A stretch of DNA of 64,000 nucleotides from Caulobacter sp. RHG1 (GTDB taxonomy: Bacteria; Pseudomonadota; Alphaproteobacteria; Caulobacterales; Caulobacteraceae): positions 62,001 through 126,000 of the forward strand of contig NZ_SMZP01000007.1 of assembly GCF_013181195.1 (NCBI RefSeq), written 5' to 3'. Every line of letters starts with the position of its first letter. The stretch's first letter is position 1. Below are positions 26,465-31,189 of the stretch, in pieces. The position numbers and the translations under genes were made by a program. The notes below the pieces were generated by a model. That model was not told the origin of the DNA. It searched no databases and saw nothing but the letters and a program-made list of their open reading frames with translations.

Positions 26465-27745
26465 ATGCACTACGACATCGTCATCGTCGGCGGGGGCGCC
26501 GGCGGACTGGAACTGGCCTCGCGGCTCGGCCGCAAGTTGGGTGGCCGAAATGGCAAGCGGCGCGTGCTCTTGATCGACCGCTCCAGCTTCCACATCTGGA
26601 AGCCAACGCTGCACGAGGTAGCCGCCGGCACGCTGGACGTCCACCAAGAGGGCATTTCCTATTCGATCCTGGGCCGCTCGAACGGCTTCAACTTCCTGCT
26701 AGGCGAACTGGCGACCTTCGATCCGGCCGCCAAGCGCCTGACGCTGAAGGCGATCCTGGCCGAGGACGGCCAAGTCCTGGCGCCCGAGCGCGCGATCACC
26801 TTCACCTATGGCGTGCTGGCGATCGGCTCGGGCTCGAACCTCTTCGGCACGCCGGGCGCGGAAAAGGCGCACCTGCTGGAGCGTACCGAGGACGCCGAAG
26901 CCTTCCATGTCCGCCTGCTGGCGGCCTTCACCAAGGCCTCGTTCTCGGCCGACAAGATCATGCGCGTGGCCATCGTCGGCGGCGGGGCGACCGGGGTCGA
27001 GCTGTCGGCCGAACTGATCGAGGCCCATCGCGAACTGCTCGGCAGTCTCGGCGACGAGCAGCGCTTCCGCCTGGACGTCACGGTGGTCGAGGCCGGGCCG
27101 CGCATCCTCAACGGCCTGCCGCAGAAGATCGCCGACAAGGCTGCGCTGGCTCTGGAGCGCAAGGGCGTCGCCGTCCGCACCGACGCCAAGGTGCTGGCCG
27201 TCCATGCCGACCGTCTGGAGACCAGTCAGGGCGACATCCCGGCCGACCTGATCGTCTGGGCGGCCGGGATCAAGGCCGCCGACGCCAACGCCAGCTTTGG
27301 CCTGGAGACCAATCGCGGCAACCAGTTCGTGGTCAACGATCGGCTGGAGACCTCTGCGCCGGACGTCTGGGCCTTGGGCGACTGCGCCGCCGCGCCGTGG
27401 AAGGACGGTCGCACTGTCCCGGCCCGCGCCCAGGCCGCTCACCAGCAGGCCAGCTATCTGGAAAAGGCCCTGCTGGCGCGCCTGCGCCAGGGCCGGGTCA
27501 CCGAGCCGTTCGTCTATCGCGATTTCGGCTCGCTGGTGTCGCTGGGCGACGACAAGGGCGTCGGGGCGCTGATGGGCGGTCTGGGAGGGCCGAACTTCTT
27601 CGTCGAGGGCCTGATCGCCAAGTGGGCCTACATGTCGCTGCACCTGGACCACCACCGGGCGATCCTGGGCGTGGGCCGCACCGCGACGCTAGCCCTGGCG
27701 CGGCTGCTGCAGCAGCGAGTGTCAGGCCGACTGAAGCTGCACTAG
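26465..27745 (+). CDS. ndh: Type II NADH:quinone oxidoreductase (NDH-2)
   Basis: A 426-residue non-proton-pumping NADH dehydrogenase that passes electrons from NADH through FAD to quinone at the inner membrane face. The FAD motif is VGGGAGGLELA near the N-terminus, and the NAD motif is VGGGATGVELSAEL near residue 175. The conserved DVWALGDCAA and AQAAHQQASYLEKAL follow. A C-terminal hydrophobic/amphipathic stretch (TATLALARLLQQRVSG) likely docks it to the membrane. ATG 26465 is chosen over GTG 26462. Its stop codon overlaps the anmK stop on the other strand. Confidence 0.87.
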   Translation: MHYDIVIVGGGAGGLELASRLGRKLGGRNGKRRVLLIDRSSFHIWKPTLHEVAAGTLDVHQEGISYSILGRSNGFNFLLGELATFDPAAKRLTLKAILAEDGQVLAPERAITFTYGVLAIGSGSNLFGTPGAEKAHLLERTEDAEAFHVRLLAAFTKASFSADKIMRVAIVGGGATGVELSAELIEAHRELLGSLGDEQRFRLDVTVVEAGPRILNGLPQKIADKAALALERKGVAVRTDAKVLAVHADRLETSQGDIPADLIVWAAGIKAADANASFGLETNRGNQFVVNDRLETSAPDVWALGDCAAAPWKDGRTVPARAQAAHQQASYLEKALLARLRQGRVTEPFVYRDFGSLVSLGDDKGVGALMGGLGGPNFFVEGLIAKWAYMSLHLDHHRAILGVGRTATLALARLLQQRVSGRLKLH

Positions 27746-28848
27746 GGCTTGGCGATCCGCCCGCCGGTCATCGGCGCTGTCACGCCCGTGGTGCCAGGGA
27801 AGCTGATCGGCAGGCCTCTCGCCGTCCGCGCCGCCAGATAGGCGAAGGCTTCGGCCTCGATGGCGTCGCCGCGCCAGCCATAGGCCTCGGCGGCCTTGAC
27901 CGGCACAGGCGCGCGGTCGGCCAGGGTCTTCATGATCGCCGGATTGTGCCGGCCGCCACCGCAGACAATCAGGGCGCTGGGCGTCTCGCCGCCTTGGCTG
28001 AAGGCCCGGAATACGCCTGCGGCCGTGAAGGCCACCAGCGTCGCGGCGGCGTCCTCGGGCGACAGGTGCGCAACCGGGGCCAGGGAGAAGTCGTAGCGGT
28101 CGAGCGACTTGGGAACCGGGGCGTCGAAATACGGGCTGGAGAGCAGCGCGTTCAGGGCCAGTTCGTCGACGCGGCCGACCGAGGCCAGCTTGCCGTCCTG
28201 ATCGAAGCGGGCGATGCCGCGCTCCTGCAGCATCAGGTCGATCATGCCGTTGCCGGGGCCGGTGTCGAAGGCCAGCAGCGATCCATCCGCCCCGATCAGG
28301 GTGATGTTGGCCACCCCGCCGATGTTCAGCGCCGCGACCGGCGCGGCCAGGCCCGAAGCCCGCGCGCGGGCGGCGTGGTAGATCGGGGCTAGCGGAGCGC
28401 CCTCCCCGCCGGCCGCGACGTCGGCGGTGCGGAAGTCGTAGGCCACCGGACGGCCGCAGGCCTTGGCCAGGCGTTCTGCGTCCAGCAACTGAACGGTGCG
28501 ACCTACGCGCTCGGCGGTCGGGCGCTCGTGCAGCACCGTCTGACCGTGGACGCCCAGGAGATCGAAGTCGGCCCAGGAAAGGCCGTGCTCCTCCAGGAAG
28601 CTCGTTGCGGCATGGAAATGCTCGTCGGCGACGGCTTTGCGAGCCTCGTCGAAGATCGCCGGTTCGGGCTCGCCGCGTGGCCAGGCGCGGGCGATGTCGG
28701 TGGTCTTCAGCAGCAGATCGCGGGTCGCCTCGCGCAGCTTGCGCTCGCCCGCCGGGCCGAAGCCCTGGATCTCTTCGCCGTCGGTCTCCAGCACCGCCAT
28801 GTCGACCGCGTCGAGCGAGGTGCCGGTCATGAATCCCAGGATCTTCAT
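27742..28848 (-). CDS. anmK: AnmK, anhydro-N-acetylmuramic acid kinase
   Basis: A 368-residue sugar kinase that opens and phosphorylates 1,6-anhydro-MurNAc to MurNAc-6-phosphate during cell-wall recycling. It begins GFMTGTSLDAVDMAV, the phosphate-binding loop of the family. It continues with VHGQTVLHERP, NIGGVANITLIG, FDTGPGNGMIDL and the C-terminal ICVGGGR-like LIVCGGGRHNP and WRGDAIEAEAFAYLA. ATG 28848 is the natural start. It is divergent from the tyrS leader, with promoter elements in the 42-bp gap. No other recycling genes are adjacent. Confidence 0.95.
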   Translation of the reverse strand: MKILGFMTGTSLDAVDMAVLETDGEEIQGFGPAGERKLREATRDLLLKTTDIARAWPRGEPEPAIFDEARKAVADEHFHAATSFLEEHGLSWADFDLLGVHGQTVLHERPTAERVGRTVQLLDAERLAKACGRPVAYDFRTADVAAGGEGAPLAPIYHAARARASGLAAPVAALNIGGVANITLIGADGSLLAFDTGPGNGMIDLMLQERGIARFDQDGKLASVGRVDELALNALLSSPYFDAPVPKSLDRYDFSLAPVAHLSPEDAAATLVAFTAAGVFRAFSQGGETPSALIVCGGGRHNPAIMKTLADRAPVPVKAAEAYGWRGDAIEAEAFAYLAARTARGLPISFPGTTGVTAPMTGGRIAKP

Positions 28849-28854
28849 GCGACG

Positions 28855-28886
28855 TTGACTGCCACGCCCGCCCCGCTGTAGCTAGG
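28855..28886 (+). promoter_or_regulatory. Promoter of the tyrS leader transcript
   Basis: TTGACT (28855-28860) is followed after 18 nt by TAGCTA (28879-28884), which overlaps GCTAGG (28881-28886), close to the Caulobacter housekeeping -10 GCTANA. Transcription would begin at about 28,890, essentially at the leader ATG. Confidence 0.6.
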
Positions 28887-28890
28887 CCCC

Positions 28891-28941
28891 ATGATCGACG
28901 CTTTCGTCCTGGCTCGCCCTTATTACCGCCCGCTGCCATAG
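28891..28941 (+). CDS. Putative 16-residue tyrosine leader peptide upstream of tyrS
   Basis: ATG 28891 to TAG 28939-28941 encodes MIDAFVLARPYYRPLP. Two adjacent tyrosine codons (TAT TAC, 28921-28926) lie near the end, directly before a hairpin, in front of the tyrosyl-tRNA synthetase gene. The predicted transcription start coincides with this ATG, so the peptide would be read from a leaderless mRNA, which Caulobacter does often. This is what a ribosome-mediated attenuation peptide should look like. It is too short for routine gene calling and I know of no description of it. Confidence 0.6.
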   Translation: MIDAFVLARPYYRPLP

Positions 28942-28994
28942 CGGGAGGCCGACCAGACACGTCGCCGCCCCGCCTTGCCGGGGTCGCTCTTTTT
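28929..28994 (+). promoter_or_regulatory. Predicted tyrS attenuator: alternative hairpins and terminator
   Basis: Four segments are visible. Segment 1, CCCGCT (28929-28934), pairs with segment 2, AGCGGG (28940-28945), around a 5-nt loop. Segment 3, CCCCG (28968-28972), pairs with segment 4, CGGGG (28979-28983), followed within 6 nt by TTTTT (28990-28994). Segment 2 can instead pair with CCCGC at 28969-28973 inside segment 3. A ribosome stalled on the two Tyr codons would cover segment 1, letting 2 pair with 3 and blocking the terminator. The pairings are read directly from the sequence; regulation is inferred. The stems are short (5-6 bp). Confidence 0.55.
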
Positions 28995-29100
28995 CCAGTC
29001 GATCATGCGCTCCGGCCCCTCCCCGGAGTATGAAATGAAACCCTCACATTCGGACCCCGCCGTGCTAGACGGCGCCCCATCGCAATCAGAGAGTCGAGCC

Positions 29101-30360
29101 ATGTCCGCCGCCGCGTCCTTCAAGTCGGATTTCCTGCGCACCATGCAGGCGCGCGGCTACATCCATCAGATCACTCATCCGGATGAGCTGGACGCCGCCG
29201 CGGCCGCCGGAACGATCGTGGCCTACATCGGCTTCGACGCCACCGCCGCCAGCCTGCACGTCGGTCACCTGATTCAGATCATGATGCTGCGCCGCCTCCA
29301 GAAGGCCGGTCACAAGCCGATCGTCCTGATGGGCGGCGGCACGACCCGCGTCGGCGATCCCAGCTTCAAGGACACCCAGCGCCCGCTGCTGACCGACGAG
29401 CAGATCCAGGCCAACATCGCCGGCATCAAGCAGGTCTTCACCAACTTCCTGACCTTCGGCGACGGCCCGACCGACGCTGTGATGGTCGACAACGACGAGT
29501 GGCTGAGCAAGCTGGGCTACGTGCAGTTCCTGCGCGACTACGGCGTGCACTTCACCATCAATCGGATGCTGACCTTCGACTCGGTCAAGCTGCGGCTCGA
29601 GCGCGAGCAGCCGATGACCTTCCTCGAATTCAACTACATGCTGATGCAGGCCACCGACTTCCTGGAGCTGAACCGCAAGTACGGCTGCGTGCTGCAGATG
29701 GGCGGCTCGGACCAGTGGGGCAACATCCTGAACGGCGTCGAACTGACCCGCCGCGTCGACCAGAAGGCCGCCTTCGGCCTGACCACGCCGCTGTTGACCA
29801 CGGCCTCGGGCGCCAAGATGGGCAAGACCATGTCGGGCGCAGTGTGGCTGAACGCCGACCAACTGAGCTCGTACGACTACTGGCAGTTCTGGCGAAACAC
29901 CGAAGACGCCGACGTCGGCCGCTTCCTGAAGCTGTTTACCGACCTGCCGCTTGAAAAGATCGCCGAACTGGAAGCCTTGGAAGGCGCCCAGATCAACGAA
30001 GCCAAGAAGGTGCTGGCCGACGAGGCCACGACCCTGGTCCACGGCGCGGACGAGGCTCGCAAGGCGCGTGAAACCGCCGAGAAGGCCTTCGAACAAGGCG
30101 TGCTGTCGGCCGACCTGCCGACCTTCGAGGTTGCGGCTGCGGATCTGGAAGCCGGCATCGTGCTGGCGGCCCTGTTCACCGACGCTGGTCTGGCCGCGTC
30201 GCGCGGCGAGGCGCGTCGCCTGGCCCAGGGCGGCGGCGTGAAGGTCAATGACGCGGCCGAGGCCGACGCCAATCGCACGATCACCTCGGCCGACCTCGTC
30301 GAGGGCGTGGTCAAGCTGGCCGCCGGCAAGAAGAAGATCGTGTTGGTGAAGCCCGTTTAG
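29101..30360 (+). CDS. tyrS: Tyrosyl-tRNA synthetase
   Basis: A 419-residue class I synthetase that charges tRNA-Tyr. The HIGH motif appears as HVGH (53-56) and the KMSKS loop as KMGKT (239-243), both usual for bacterial TyrRS. Tyrosine-pocket sequence includes [15 protein letters not shown] and the [11 protein letters not shown] stretch (199-209). An S4 RNA-binding domain fills about 350-419 ([21 protein letters not shown]). I chose ATG 29101, where homologues begin. The in-frame upstream ATGs at 29,005 and 29,035 would add unconserved sequence over the attenuator trailer. A leader peptide and possible attenuator precede it. Confidence 0.96.
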
Positions 30361-30477
30361 TTATCTAGTTTCCCTTGCGGGATATCTGGTTGATTGTCGT
30401 CCCGGCAGCGGCTTAGCCAAGGATTCGCGTCCTGGCGGCGCCCGGCCGGGACGGCCGTTCATGTGGAGACGCGTTCG

Positions 30478-30939
30478 ATGCTGCAACCCGGCGACAAGGC
30501 CCCCGACTTCGACCTGCCGACCGACACCGGCCGGGTCAGCCTGGCGGGCCTGAAGGGCAAGAACGTCGTGCTCTATTTCTATCCGAAGGACGACACCGCC
30601 GGCTGCACGTCCGAGGCTCTGCAGTTCTCGTCGGAAGTCGAGGAGTTCCAGAAGCTGGGCGCGGTGATCGTGGGCGTGTCCAAGGACAGCGCCGCCTCGC
30701 ACGCCAAGTTCCGCAAGAAGCACGACCTGACCATCGAACTGGCCGCCGACCCGCTGGGCGACATCGTCGAGGCCTATGGCGCCTGGGTCGAGAAGAGCAT
30801 GTACGGCCGCAAGTACATGGGCATCGATCGCTCGACCTTCCTGATCGACCGCGAGGGCGTCGTCCGCGAGGTCTGGCGCAAGGTTAAGGTGCCGGGGCAC
30901 ATCAAGGCGGTGATGAACGCCGCCAAGGCCATCAAGTAA
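30478..30939 (+). CDS. Peroxiredoxin, BCP/PrxQ family
   Basis: A 153-residue thiol peroxidase of the Bcp/PrxQ type that reduces peroxides in the cytoplasm. The peroxidatic cysteine is Cys43 (in DDTAGCTSEA). The resolving cysteine five residues on, present in E. coli BCP, is Leu48 here, and Cys43 is the only cysteine, so it must work as a 1-Cys enzyme or with an external thiol. The sequences VVLYFYPKDDT and STFLIDREGVVREVWRKVKVPGH are family-typical. GGAG lies 9 nt before ATG 30478. It is 117 bp downstream of tyrS. Confidence 0.9.
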   Translation: MLQPGDKAPDFDLPTDTGRVSLAGLKGKNVVLYFYPKDDTAGCTSEALQFSSEVEEFQKLGAVIVGVSKDSAASHAKFRKKHDLTIELAADPLGDIVEAYGAWVEKSMYGRKYMGIDRSTFLIDREGVVREVWRKVKVPGHIKAVMNAAKAIK

Positions 30940-31189
30940 GCTTCACACAATAAATTCGCCTGGCGCGGGAACCTTCGCTCGCCATCTGTGTTGTATCTCA
31001 GCCTCTACCTGTGACCTTTCGGCAGAGCCTCACGCTTAACGCGTGGTCTTGGCGGTTAGGATTCATTAAGAAATGGGGCGCAAGGTGCTATTTCGCGACT
31101 CGCGCTCACTTGGGGCGCTAAGAGTCTTGCGCCTTTCCGCTTTCTCGTAGCATATCCCCCAGACCTGAAACGGGGGGTTTCCTGGTACG

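Follow-up and report, generated by a model that had tools for sequence, protein, structure and literature searches.

We found that tyrS of Caulobacter sp. RHG1 is probably preceded by a tyrosine-responsive translational attenuator that combines a leader peptide of 16 codons with six pairing arms, lying in the intergenic stretch between anmK (minus strand, from 28848 downwards) and tyrS (plus strand; TIGR00234, scoring 375.4 bits over 29035–30357 where the cut-off is 113.8). Positions are those of the window, the whole 64,000-nt stretch of DNA that was analysed, and the features are collected in Table 1. In the mechanism that we propose, the first transcribed base would be the A of the leader ATG, no 5′ untranslated region would precede it, and a ribosome would load right at this codon. 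When Tyr-tRNA is sufficient, this ribosome would reach the stop codon and cover arms 1 and 2, hairpins 3-4 and 5-6 would form and tyrS translation would be low; untranslated RNA would also adopt an off state, folded as P0, 1-2, 3-4 and 5-6. With too little Tyr-tRNA, the ribosome would instead stall on the Tyr codons and cover arm 1, upon which arm 2 would take arm 3, arm 4 would take arm 5 and the Shine-Dalgarno sequence of the start at 29035 would be freed. A shortage of charged Tyr-tRNA would in this way lead to more synthetase.

Table 1. Features of the tyrS leader region, in window positions.
Feature	Position	Strand	Sequence or pairing	Remarks
Promoter	28856–28884	+	TTGACT 28856–28861, TAGCTA 28879–28884	Spacer of 17 nt; read in the sequence
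Leader peptide	28891–28941	+	MIDAFVLARPYYRPLP, stop TAG 28939–28941	Reading frame read; conserved in relatives
Helix P0	28891–29006	+	28891–28899 with 28998–29006, 9 of 9 pairs	Predicted fold without ribosome
Hairpin 1-2	28926–28948	+	CCCGCT 28929–28934 / AGCGGG 28940–28945, extended by CC/GG	Directly behind the Tyr codons
Alternative helix 2-3	28941–28973	+	Core GCGGG 28941–28945 with CCCGC 28969–28973; 28947–28949 with 28964–28966; 28951–28953 with 28961–28963	Predicted fold with stalled ribosome
Hairpin 3-4	28964–28987	+	CCCCG 28968–28972 / CGGGG 28979–28983	Terminator stem of the original prediction
Alternative helix 4-5	28977–29016	+	GCCGGGG 28977–28983 with CTCCGGC 29010–29016, one G-U	
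T-tract	28990–28994	+	TTTTT	Read; poorly conserved
Hairpin 5-6	29009–29029	+	GCTCCGG 29009–29015 / CCGGAGT 29023–29029	Predicted fold; covers GGAG 29025–29028
tyrS	29035–30360	+	Probable start ATG 29035	ATG 29101 alternative, in frame downstream
Possible second, proximal promoter (−10)	29062–29071	+	GTGCTAGACG	Putative; downstream of the switch

The original prediction had placed a promoter, TTGACT/TAGCTA, just before ATG 28891, and both elements are indeed found there. They were absent from the output of a sigma-70 scan; in an alignment of 28 same-genus loci, −35 and −10 are nearly invariant, with TTGACTGCC...TAGCTAG conserved. Weak as the elements are when taken alone, their conservation confirms that the observation is real and more than chance: we judged the arrangement real because, the T-run excepted, it is conserved, though single-sequence statistics would not single it out. 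Only 6 nt separate TAGCTA from the leader ATG, and from this spacing we infer a transcription start at 28891, the A of that ATG, and translation of the leader without a 5′ untranslated region by a ribosome beginning at the start of the message. A leaderless-type start, as had been proposed, is consistent with spacing that is conserved across the family, the start codon being 35–38 nt away from the T that opens TTGA in all but one of the 86 leaders, under a detection rule that accepted start codons at 31–41 nt.

The 16-codon reading frame with adjacent Tyr codons (TAT TAC, 28921–28926, in MIDAFVLARPYYRPLP) was likewise as predicted, and Tyr-Tyr is nearly invariant in the same-genus alignment. 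To build the latter, DNA of 28830–29130 was matched to the family, with hits in 53 of 199 genomes at E≤0.001 and loci obtained from 30 of them; L029 and L030, which matched only partially, were left out. Near-invariance in this alignment extends beyond the promoter and Tyr-Tyr codons to the ATG, the stop and the two arms of the first hairpin; the T-run, the second hairpin and the peptide's N-terminal half are variable. Stretches from 20 of the 23 further matching genomes contained tyrS in 19 cases (the L050 stretch being without it), all 19 with the leader, and among the best 80 of 590 related tyrS loci 44 had a leader and 36 had none. The original prediction hinged on conservation of the Tyr-Tyr peptide in close relatives, and conserved it is: after removal of seven duplicates, 86 distinct Tyr leaders are left upstream of tyrS in Caulobacteraceae. 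Most of them belong to Caulobacter, to Phenylobacterium and to part of Brevundimonas. Their detection required one Tyr codon; the Tyr run has two codons in 78, three in five and one in three leaders. The leader is 16 codons long in 59 cases, 15 in 25, and 17 and 18 in one each, the Tyr run is separated from the stop by 3–5 codons, and the stop is TAG in 61, TAA in 14 and TGA in 11.

When Tyr was not required, 68 of the 71 distinct loci with TGACTGCCA upstream of tyrS still had a Tyr leader, and the three exceptions, L029, L070 and L077, lack a working one. L077 has no leader ahead of tyrS, whereas decayed leaders are seen in the other two, with His-Trp in place of the Tyr codons and no nearby stop in L029, and Asp-Asn in their place and a decayed hairpin in L070. 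These data bear on another reading, in which TyrS itself or another protein uses the conserved RNA as an operator and the peptide is incidental. Autoregulation of synthetases is known elsewhere, as for E. coli thrS, and conserved structure over the Shine-Dalgarno sequence of a synthetase gene would suit it; nevertheless, we regard this reading as highly improbable, given that the Tyr codons keep a fixed place relative to the stop in the 86 leaders, recur in the 68 of 71 unconditioned loci, and have decayed in L070 along with the hairpin and in L029 along with the stop. Among the best 80 of 590 loci, no such leader was found in four from Asticcacaulis (L073, L074, L079, L107), in several from Brevundimonas or in Parvularculaceae, and we read these loci as suggesting that the switch was lost or gained within Caulobacteraceae. 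By eye, a promoter close to the gene may read tyrS in Asticcacaulis and Brevundimonas loci that are without the switch.

The pairing arms of the proposed tyrosine-responsive attenuator were assessed with an alignment-free coevolution test, where the 86 leaders were clustered at 80% into 35 clusters and pairing of each arm with its own partner was compared to that with the partner from another cluster. The first stem, CCCGCT/AGCGGG directly after the Tyr codons, is present as claimed and its arms coevolve (z −6.7), as do those of 2-3 (z −3.9) and 3-4 (z −7.7, a value inflated by the choice of this hairpin by energy), so that the mutually exclusive 1-2, 3-4 versus 2-3 design originally predicted appears to be conserved. 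Moreover, coevolution extends to 4-5 (z −3.5, and −4.8 with wider windows) and to 5-6 (z −4.5), whose arm 6 holds the Shine-Dalgarno sequence GGAG of tyrS, and the two regions forming P0, at the leader start and behind the stop, also coevolve (z −6.5 and −6.3 in two runs). Of 36 region pairs, the five with the lowest z values are precisely those of neighbouring arms, the other 31 ranging from −2.6 to +2.8, and a letter-shuffled null had a standard deviation of 1.03 and a minimum of −2.94 in 100. One off-chain pair, the P0 partner region with arm 3, reached −4.2 in the wider-window run, perhaps owing to overlapping windows. The 35 clusters are still related and the permutation keeps this relatedness, so the z values are not strict probabilities and the control pairs are the better guide. 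Different letters can be seen in equivalent arms: Phenylobacterium-type leaders have CGCCTGC/GCAGGCG in place of the hairpin 1-2 arms, and the 5-6 arms read, by eye, CTCCGG/CCGGAG in one Caulobacter group and GTCTCC/GGAGAC in another. The P0 partner lies mostly just behind hairpin 1-2 in the other clades shown.

A column-wise count in a 24-sequence Phenylobacterium-type alignment supported P0, 1-2 and 3-4 by three of five measures (the covariation score, the fraction of cells that are paired and the cells with a change on either side, each reached by 0 of 500 shuffles); for the same helices, the numbers of pairs changed on both sides and of pair types were reached by 109 and 217 of 500 shuffles respectively. 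No covariation beyond shuffles was detected in this alignment for 2-3 and 4-5, in our view because their register shifts between clades. The covarying stems that the original prediction called for were found as coevolving arm pairs over the 35 clusters, but not column by column for 2-3 within this one clade.

Folding without a ribosome gave, in 14 of 16 leaders judged by eye, P0 enclosing 1-2 around the stop, followed by 3-4 and then by the Shine-Dalgarno hairpin, while 2-3 formed already without a ribosome in L012. To model the switch, the part under the ribosome was removed and folds with the ribosome on the Tyr codons were compared to those with it at the stop. Mean expected pairs over the 86 leaders, stalled versus at stop, were 4.3 versus 0.0 for 2-3, 4.4 versus 8.2 for 3-4, 3.2 versus 0.7 for 4-5 and 6.2 versus 8.6 for 5-6. 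With arm 2 shuffled, the stalled values became 2.5, 6.3, 1.9 and 7.0 respectively; some of the shift is kept, and part of it is therefore not specific. Hairpin 3-4 lost at least two pairs in 49 of 86 leaders with native arm 2 compared to 37 with shuffled arm 2, 4-5 was gained in 31 versus 18 and 5-6 was lost in 35 versus 26. Over four modelled 3′ ends, 3-4 lost at least two pairs on stalling in 36–57 of the 86 leaders and gained them in 0–1, and 5-6 lost them in 17–49 and gained them in 1–3.

In the window itself, folded under 21 settings that varied the ribosome edge and the 3′ end, 2-3 had 7.6–10.0 expected pairs with the ribosome on the Tyr codons, which largely answers the original doubt about short stems, though for this helix only. 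Hairpin 3-4 fell to 0.0–2.0 expected pairs when stalled versus 6.7–8.3 at the stop in 19 of the settings, and was lost at the stop too in the remaining two, which had the longest 3′ end. The change from 5-6 to 4-5 appeared with some modelled 3′ ends and was absent with others. Shine-Dalgarno accessibility at equilibrium was nearly unchanged, rising by more than 0.2 in eight of 86 leaders and falling in two for a stall at the first Tyr codon, and rising in nine and falling in three for one at the second; pair counts between named arms gave a clearer picture, but one dependent on the 3′ end. The first half of the relay, 2-3 displacing 3-4, is thus well supported in the modelled folds, whereas the second half, from 5-6 to 4-5, is suggested mainly by coevolution, its folds varying with the 3′ end chosen.

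The translation start of tyrS also deserves attention. From leader stop to the start of the Shine-Dalgarno sequence the distance is 83–116 nt in the 86 leaders, with a standard deviation of 6.8, although the TyrS N-terminus shifts; measured to the place equivalent to window residue 29101, the standard deviation is 36.7 nt. The start was chosen by best Shine-Dalgarno sequence, which favours the tight value somewhat, and no Shine-Dalgarno word of at least four letters occurs at the chosen start in 10 of the 86. The chosen start is upstream of the place of 29101 in 65 of the 86 leaders. ATG 29035 is the probable start of tyrS on the leader transcript, and the narrow Shine-Dalgarno distance together with the scarcity of T-runs led us to place the main output of the switch at translation from this codon. 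The segment 29035–29100 of the window would be a 22-codon in-frame extension of TyrS, and it carries the possible proximal promoter. GTGCTAGAC is nearly invariant in the 28 same-genus loci, and several relatives that have no leader show a similar GTGCTACACG a short distance ahead of tyrS. If active, this promoter may provide a basal, unregulated transcript that escapes the switch, with TyrS made from ATG 29101.

Hairpin 3-4 and the T-tract behind it had originally been taken for a terminator. Both are present in the window, with TTTTT 6 nt behind the CCCCG/CGGGG stem and 2 nt behind the extended stem, but the arrangement is not general: at least five T in eight positions follow 3-4 in just 9 of 86 leaders, among which the window's genome is the only one with a run of at least four T, and L061 has a run of four T yet falls below the five-of-eight rule. 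Taken by itself, this genome does have a stem with a T-run; terminator-like sites in 27000–31000 are at chance level (2 found, 1.9 expected, standard deviation 1.6). Because most leaders lack the T-tract, intrinsic termination is not supported as the general mechanism, although it may add transcription termination in the window's own subclade. Classical transcription attenuation, in which 3-4 with the T-tract would act as intrinsic terminator while a stall at Tyr favours 2-3 and readthrough as in the trp and phe operons, appears unlikely. Coevolution of 1-2, 2-3 and 3-4, the displacement of 3-4 by 2-3 on stalling in the window, and the 6-pair stem and five T present there would all fit it, but the T-run begins 2–6 nt behind the stem, depending on the stem extent counted, few leaders have one, and the coevolving arms of 4-5 and 5-6 and the narrow Shine-Dalgarno distance would be left unexplained.

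With most leaders devoid of a T-tract and with 83–116 nt, from the leader stop to the start of tyrS, in which the leader frame is absent, termination could alternatively depend on Rho, the translation state of the leader exposing or hiding a Rho site behind the stop and the hairpins being secondary. We consider this quite improbable, as such a mechanism needs neither the chain of coevolving arms nor a hairpin over the Shine-Dalgarno sequence.

Searches beyond individual loci were made with covariance models. RNAalifold found no consensus pairs in a MAFFT alignment of 38 of the 86 leaders, and model R1 was for this reason sequence-only; model R2 was built from a hand-set structure on the 24-sequence alignment. 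Run on 89 loci, R2 finds leaders outside its training set. At E≤1e-6 it has a match in 105 of the 199 family genomes and at E≤0.01 in 125, the weak matches among the latter including wrong places; a position next to tyrS was confirmed for the 86 leaders. Four same-genus leaders identified by reading (in G101, G126, G142 and G164) were missed by R2, as was the tyrS leader of G035, where a weak match lies elsewhere than at tyrS.

Across the class, R2 matched 15 of 385 genomes at E≤0.01, the window's own included, and no tyrS leader outside the family was present among those judged, four of the 14 others. The L165 and L167 matches appear to lie inside a coding frame, there is no such leader at L168, and the match at L163 is a different attenuator-like leader. 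The latter, in a genome of another alphaproteobacterial family (G383), has a leaderless-type peptide, MTGRRHHFGWYFTSLP, with Phe, Trp, Tyr and Phe, a helix joining the peptide start to sequence after its stop, and a hairpin whose tail is rich in T, and precedes a gene that by eye is acetyltransferase-like. tyrS itself is present in 272 of 289 class-wide genomes. Among 27 tyrS loci from outside the family, an ATG-started reading frame with Tyr-Tyr was found in one, L144, and looked unrelated by eye. Region 28800–29160 matched none of 4227 Rfam families at E≤5, T-box included, and a T-box riboswitch was rejected on these grounds. Elsewhere in the window, Rfam CC1840, a Caulobacter sRNA, matched 158–252 on the minus strand with 82.6 bits.

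A sister leader was found at trpS. In the genome of the window, trpS (G000:C12:375906–376904; L161, minus strand) is preceded by MALIGLLAARWRGSN, which contains one Trp codon, starts just behind a −10-like stretch and is followed by a folded region; it has the same size and plan as the tyrS leader. A Trp-containing leader precedes trpS in 22 of 23 same-genus loci, under a detection that needed a Trp; the DNA search had matched 23 of 41 genomes. No such leader was seen by eye at pheS of the same genome. A possible, still tentative, generalization is that synthetase attenuators with a leaderless start form a class of their own in Caulobacteraceae, with Tyr-Tyr at tyrS, Trp at trpS and perhaps further members. 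A ribosome would load on the first nucleotides, a six-arm relay would carry the signal about 90 nt to the ribosome-binding site and P0 would reset the untranslated leader. The main text of Schrader and colleagues (PMC4117421) describes, from ribosome profiling of C. crescentus, a small putative CDS in the leader of the trpS mRNA, and numerous leaderless messages (375) translated about as well as others in this species. Like the tyrS leader, that trpS leader encodes a peptide upstream of a synthetase gene, and it comes from the same genus, but with Trp as a single codon and with no alternative structure mentioned in the passage describing it; 'tyrS' and 'tyrosyl' are absent from the main text. 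The trpS leader CDS and the well-translated leaderless messages reported there (PMC4117421) offer a plausible experimental neighbour for our reading of tyrS. As a laboratory model in which leaderless messages abound, Caulobacter crescentus suits direct study of the tyrS leader, and the translation start site of tyrS merits another look.

To our knowledge, control of synthetases by leader peptides is sparsely documented outside gamma-proteobacteria and Actinobacteria. Titles and abstract openings of the open-access papers searched yielded no tyrS leader peptide, and an older subscription paper may exist; in the papers that join tyrS, leader peptide and attenuation, tyrS figures, as far as these parts tell, in a reference title, an Enterococcus gene cluster or as neighbour of chlamydial tyrP. 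Leader-peptide transcription attenuators are known for the trp, phe and his operons and for pheST, and the classical ones end in a terminator. The tyrS leader shares with them a short reading frame with cognate codons, found in 86 leaders, a hairpin behind these codons and the exclusive 1-2, 2-3 and 3-4 alternatives, backed by coevolution and by the stalled versus stop folds; unlike them, it has no conserved T-tract, an apparent leaderless start, tyrS as target and a chain that reaches the Shine-Dalgarno sequence, so that the conserved output would be a ribosome-binding site reached through a relay rather than a terminator. Leader-peptide attenuators of amino acid operons (trp, phe and his; pheST) are named in the text of PMC1262725, along with Streptomyces trpS and leuS candidates of the classical type, those of leuS with terminator hairpins and poly-U tracts. 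These candidates resemble the tyrS leader in having a cognate-codon peptide ahead of a synthetase gene and in having been found by comparison, but belong to another phylum, with tyrS present there only in a reference title (PMC1262725).

In the erm and cat translational attenuators, stalling on a leader reading frame rearranges hairpins and frees the Shine-Dalgarno sequence, ermA being a multi-arm relay. The proposed tyrS switch would have this stalling-driven rearrangement in common with them and, following the erm/cat plan, has its Shine-Dalgarno sequence in a hairpin, 5-6, which coevolves (z −4.5) and has 8.6 expected pairs at the stop as the mean of 86 leaders. It would differ from erm and cat in its signal, a shortage of charged Tyr-tRNA in place of a drug, and in its target, a housekeeping synthetase.
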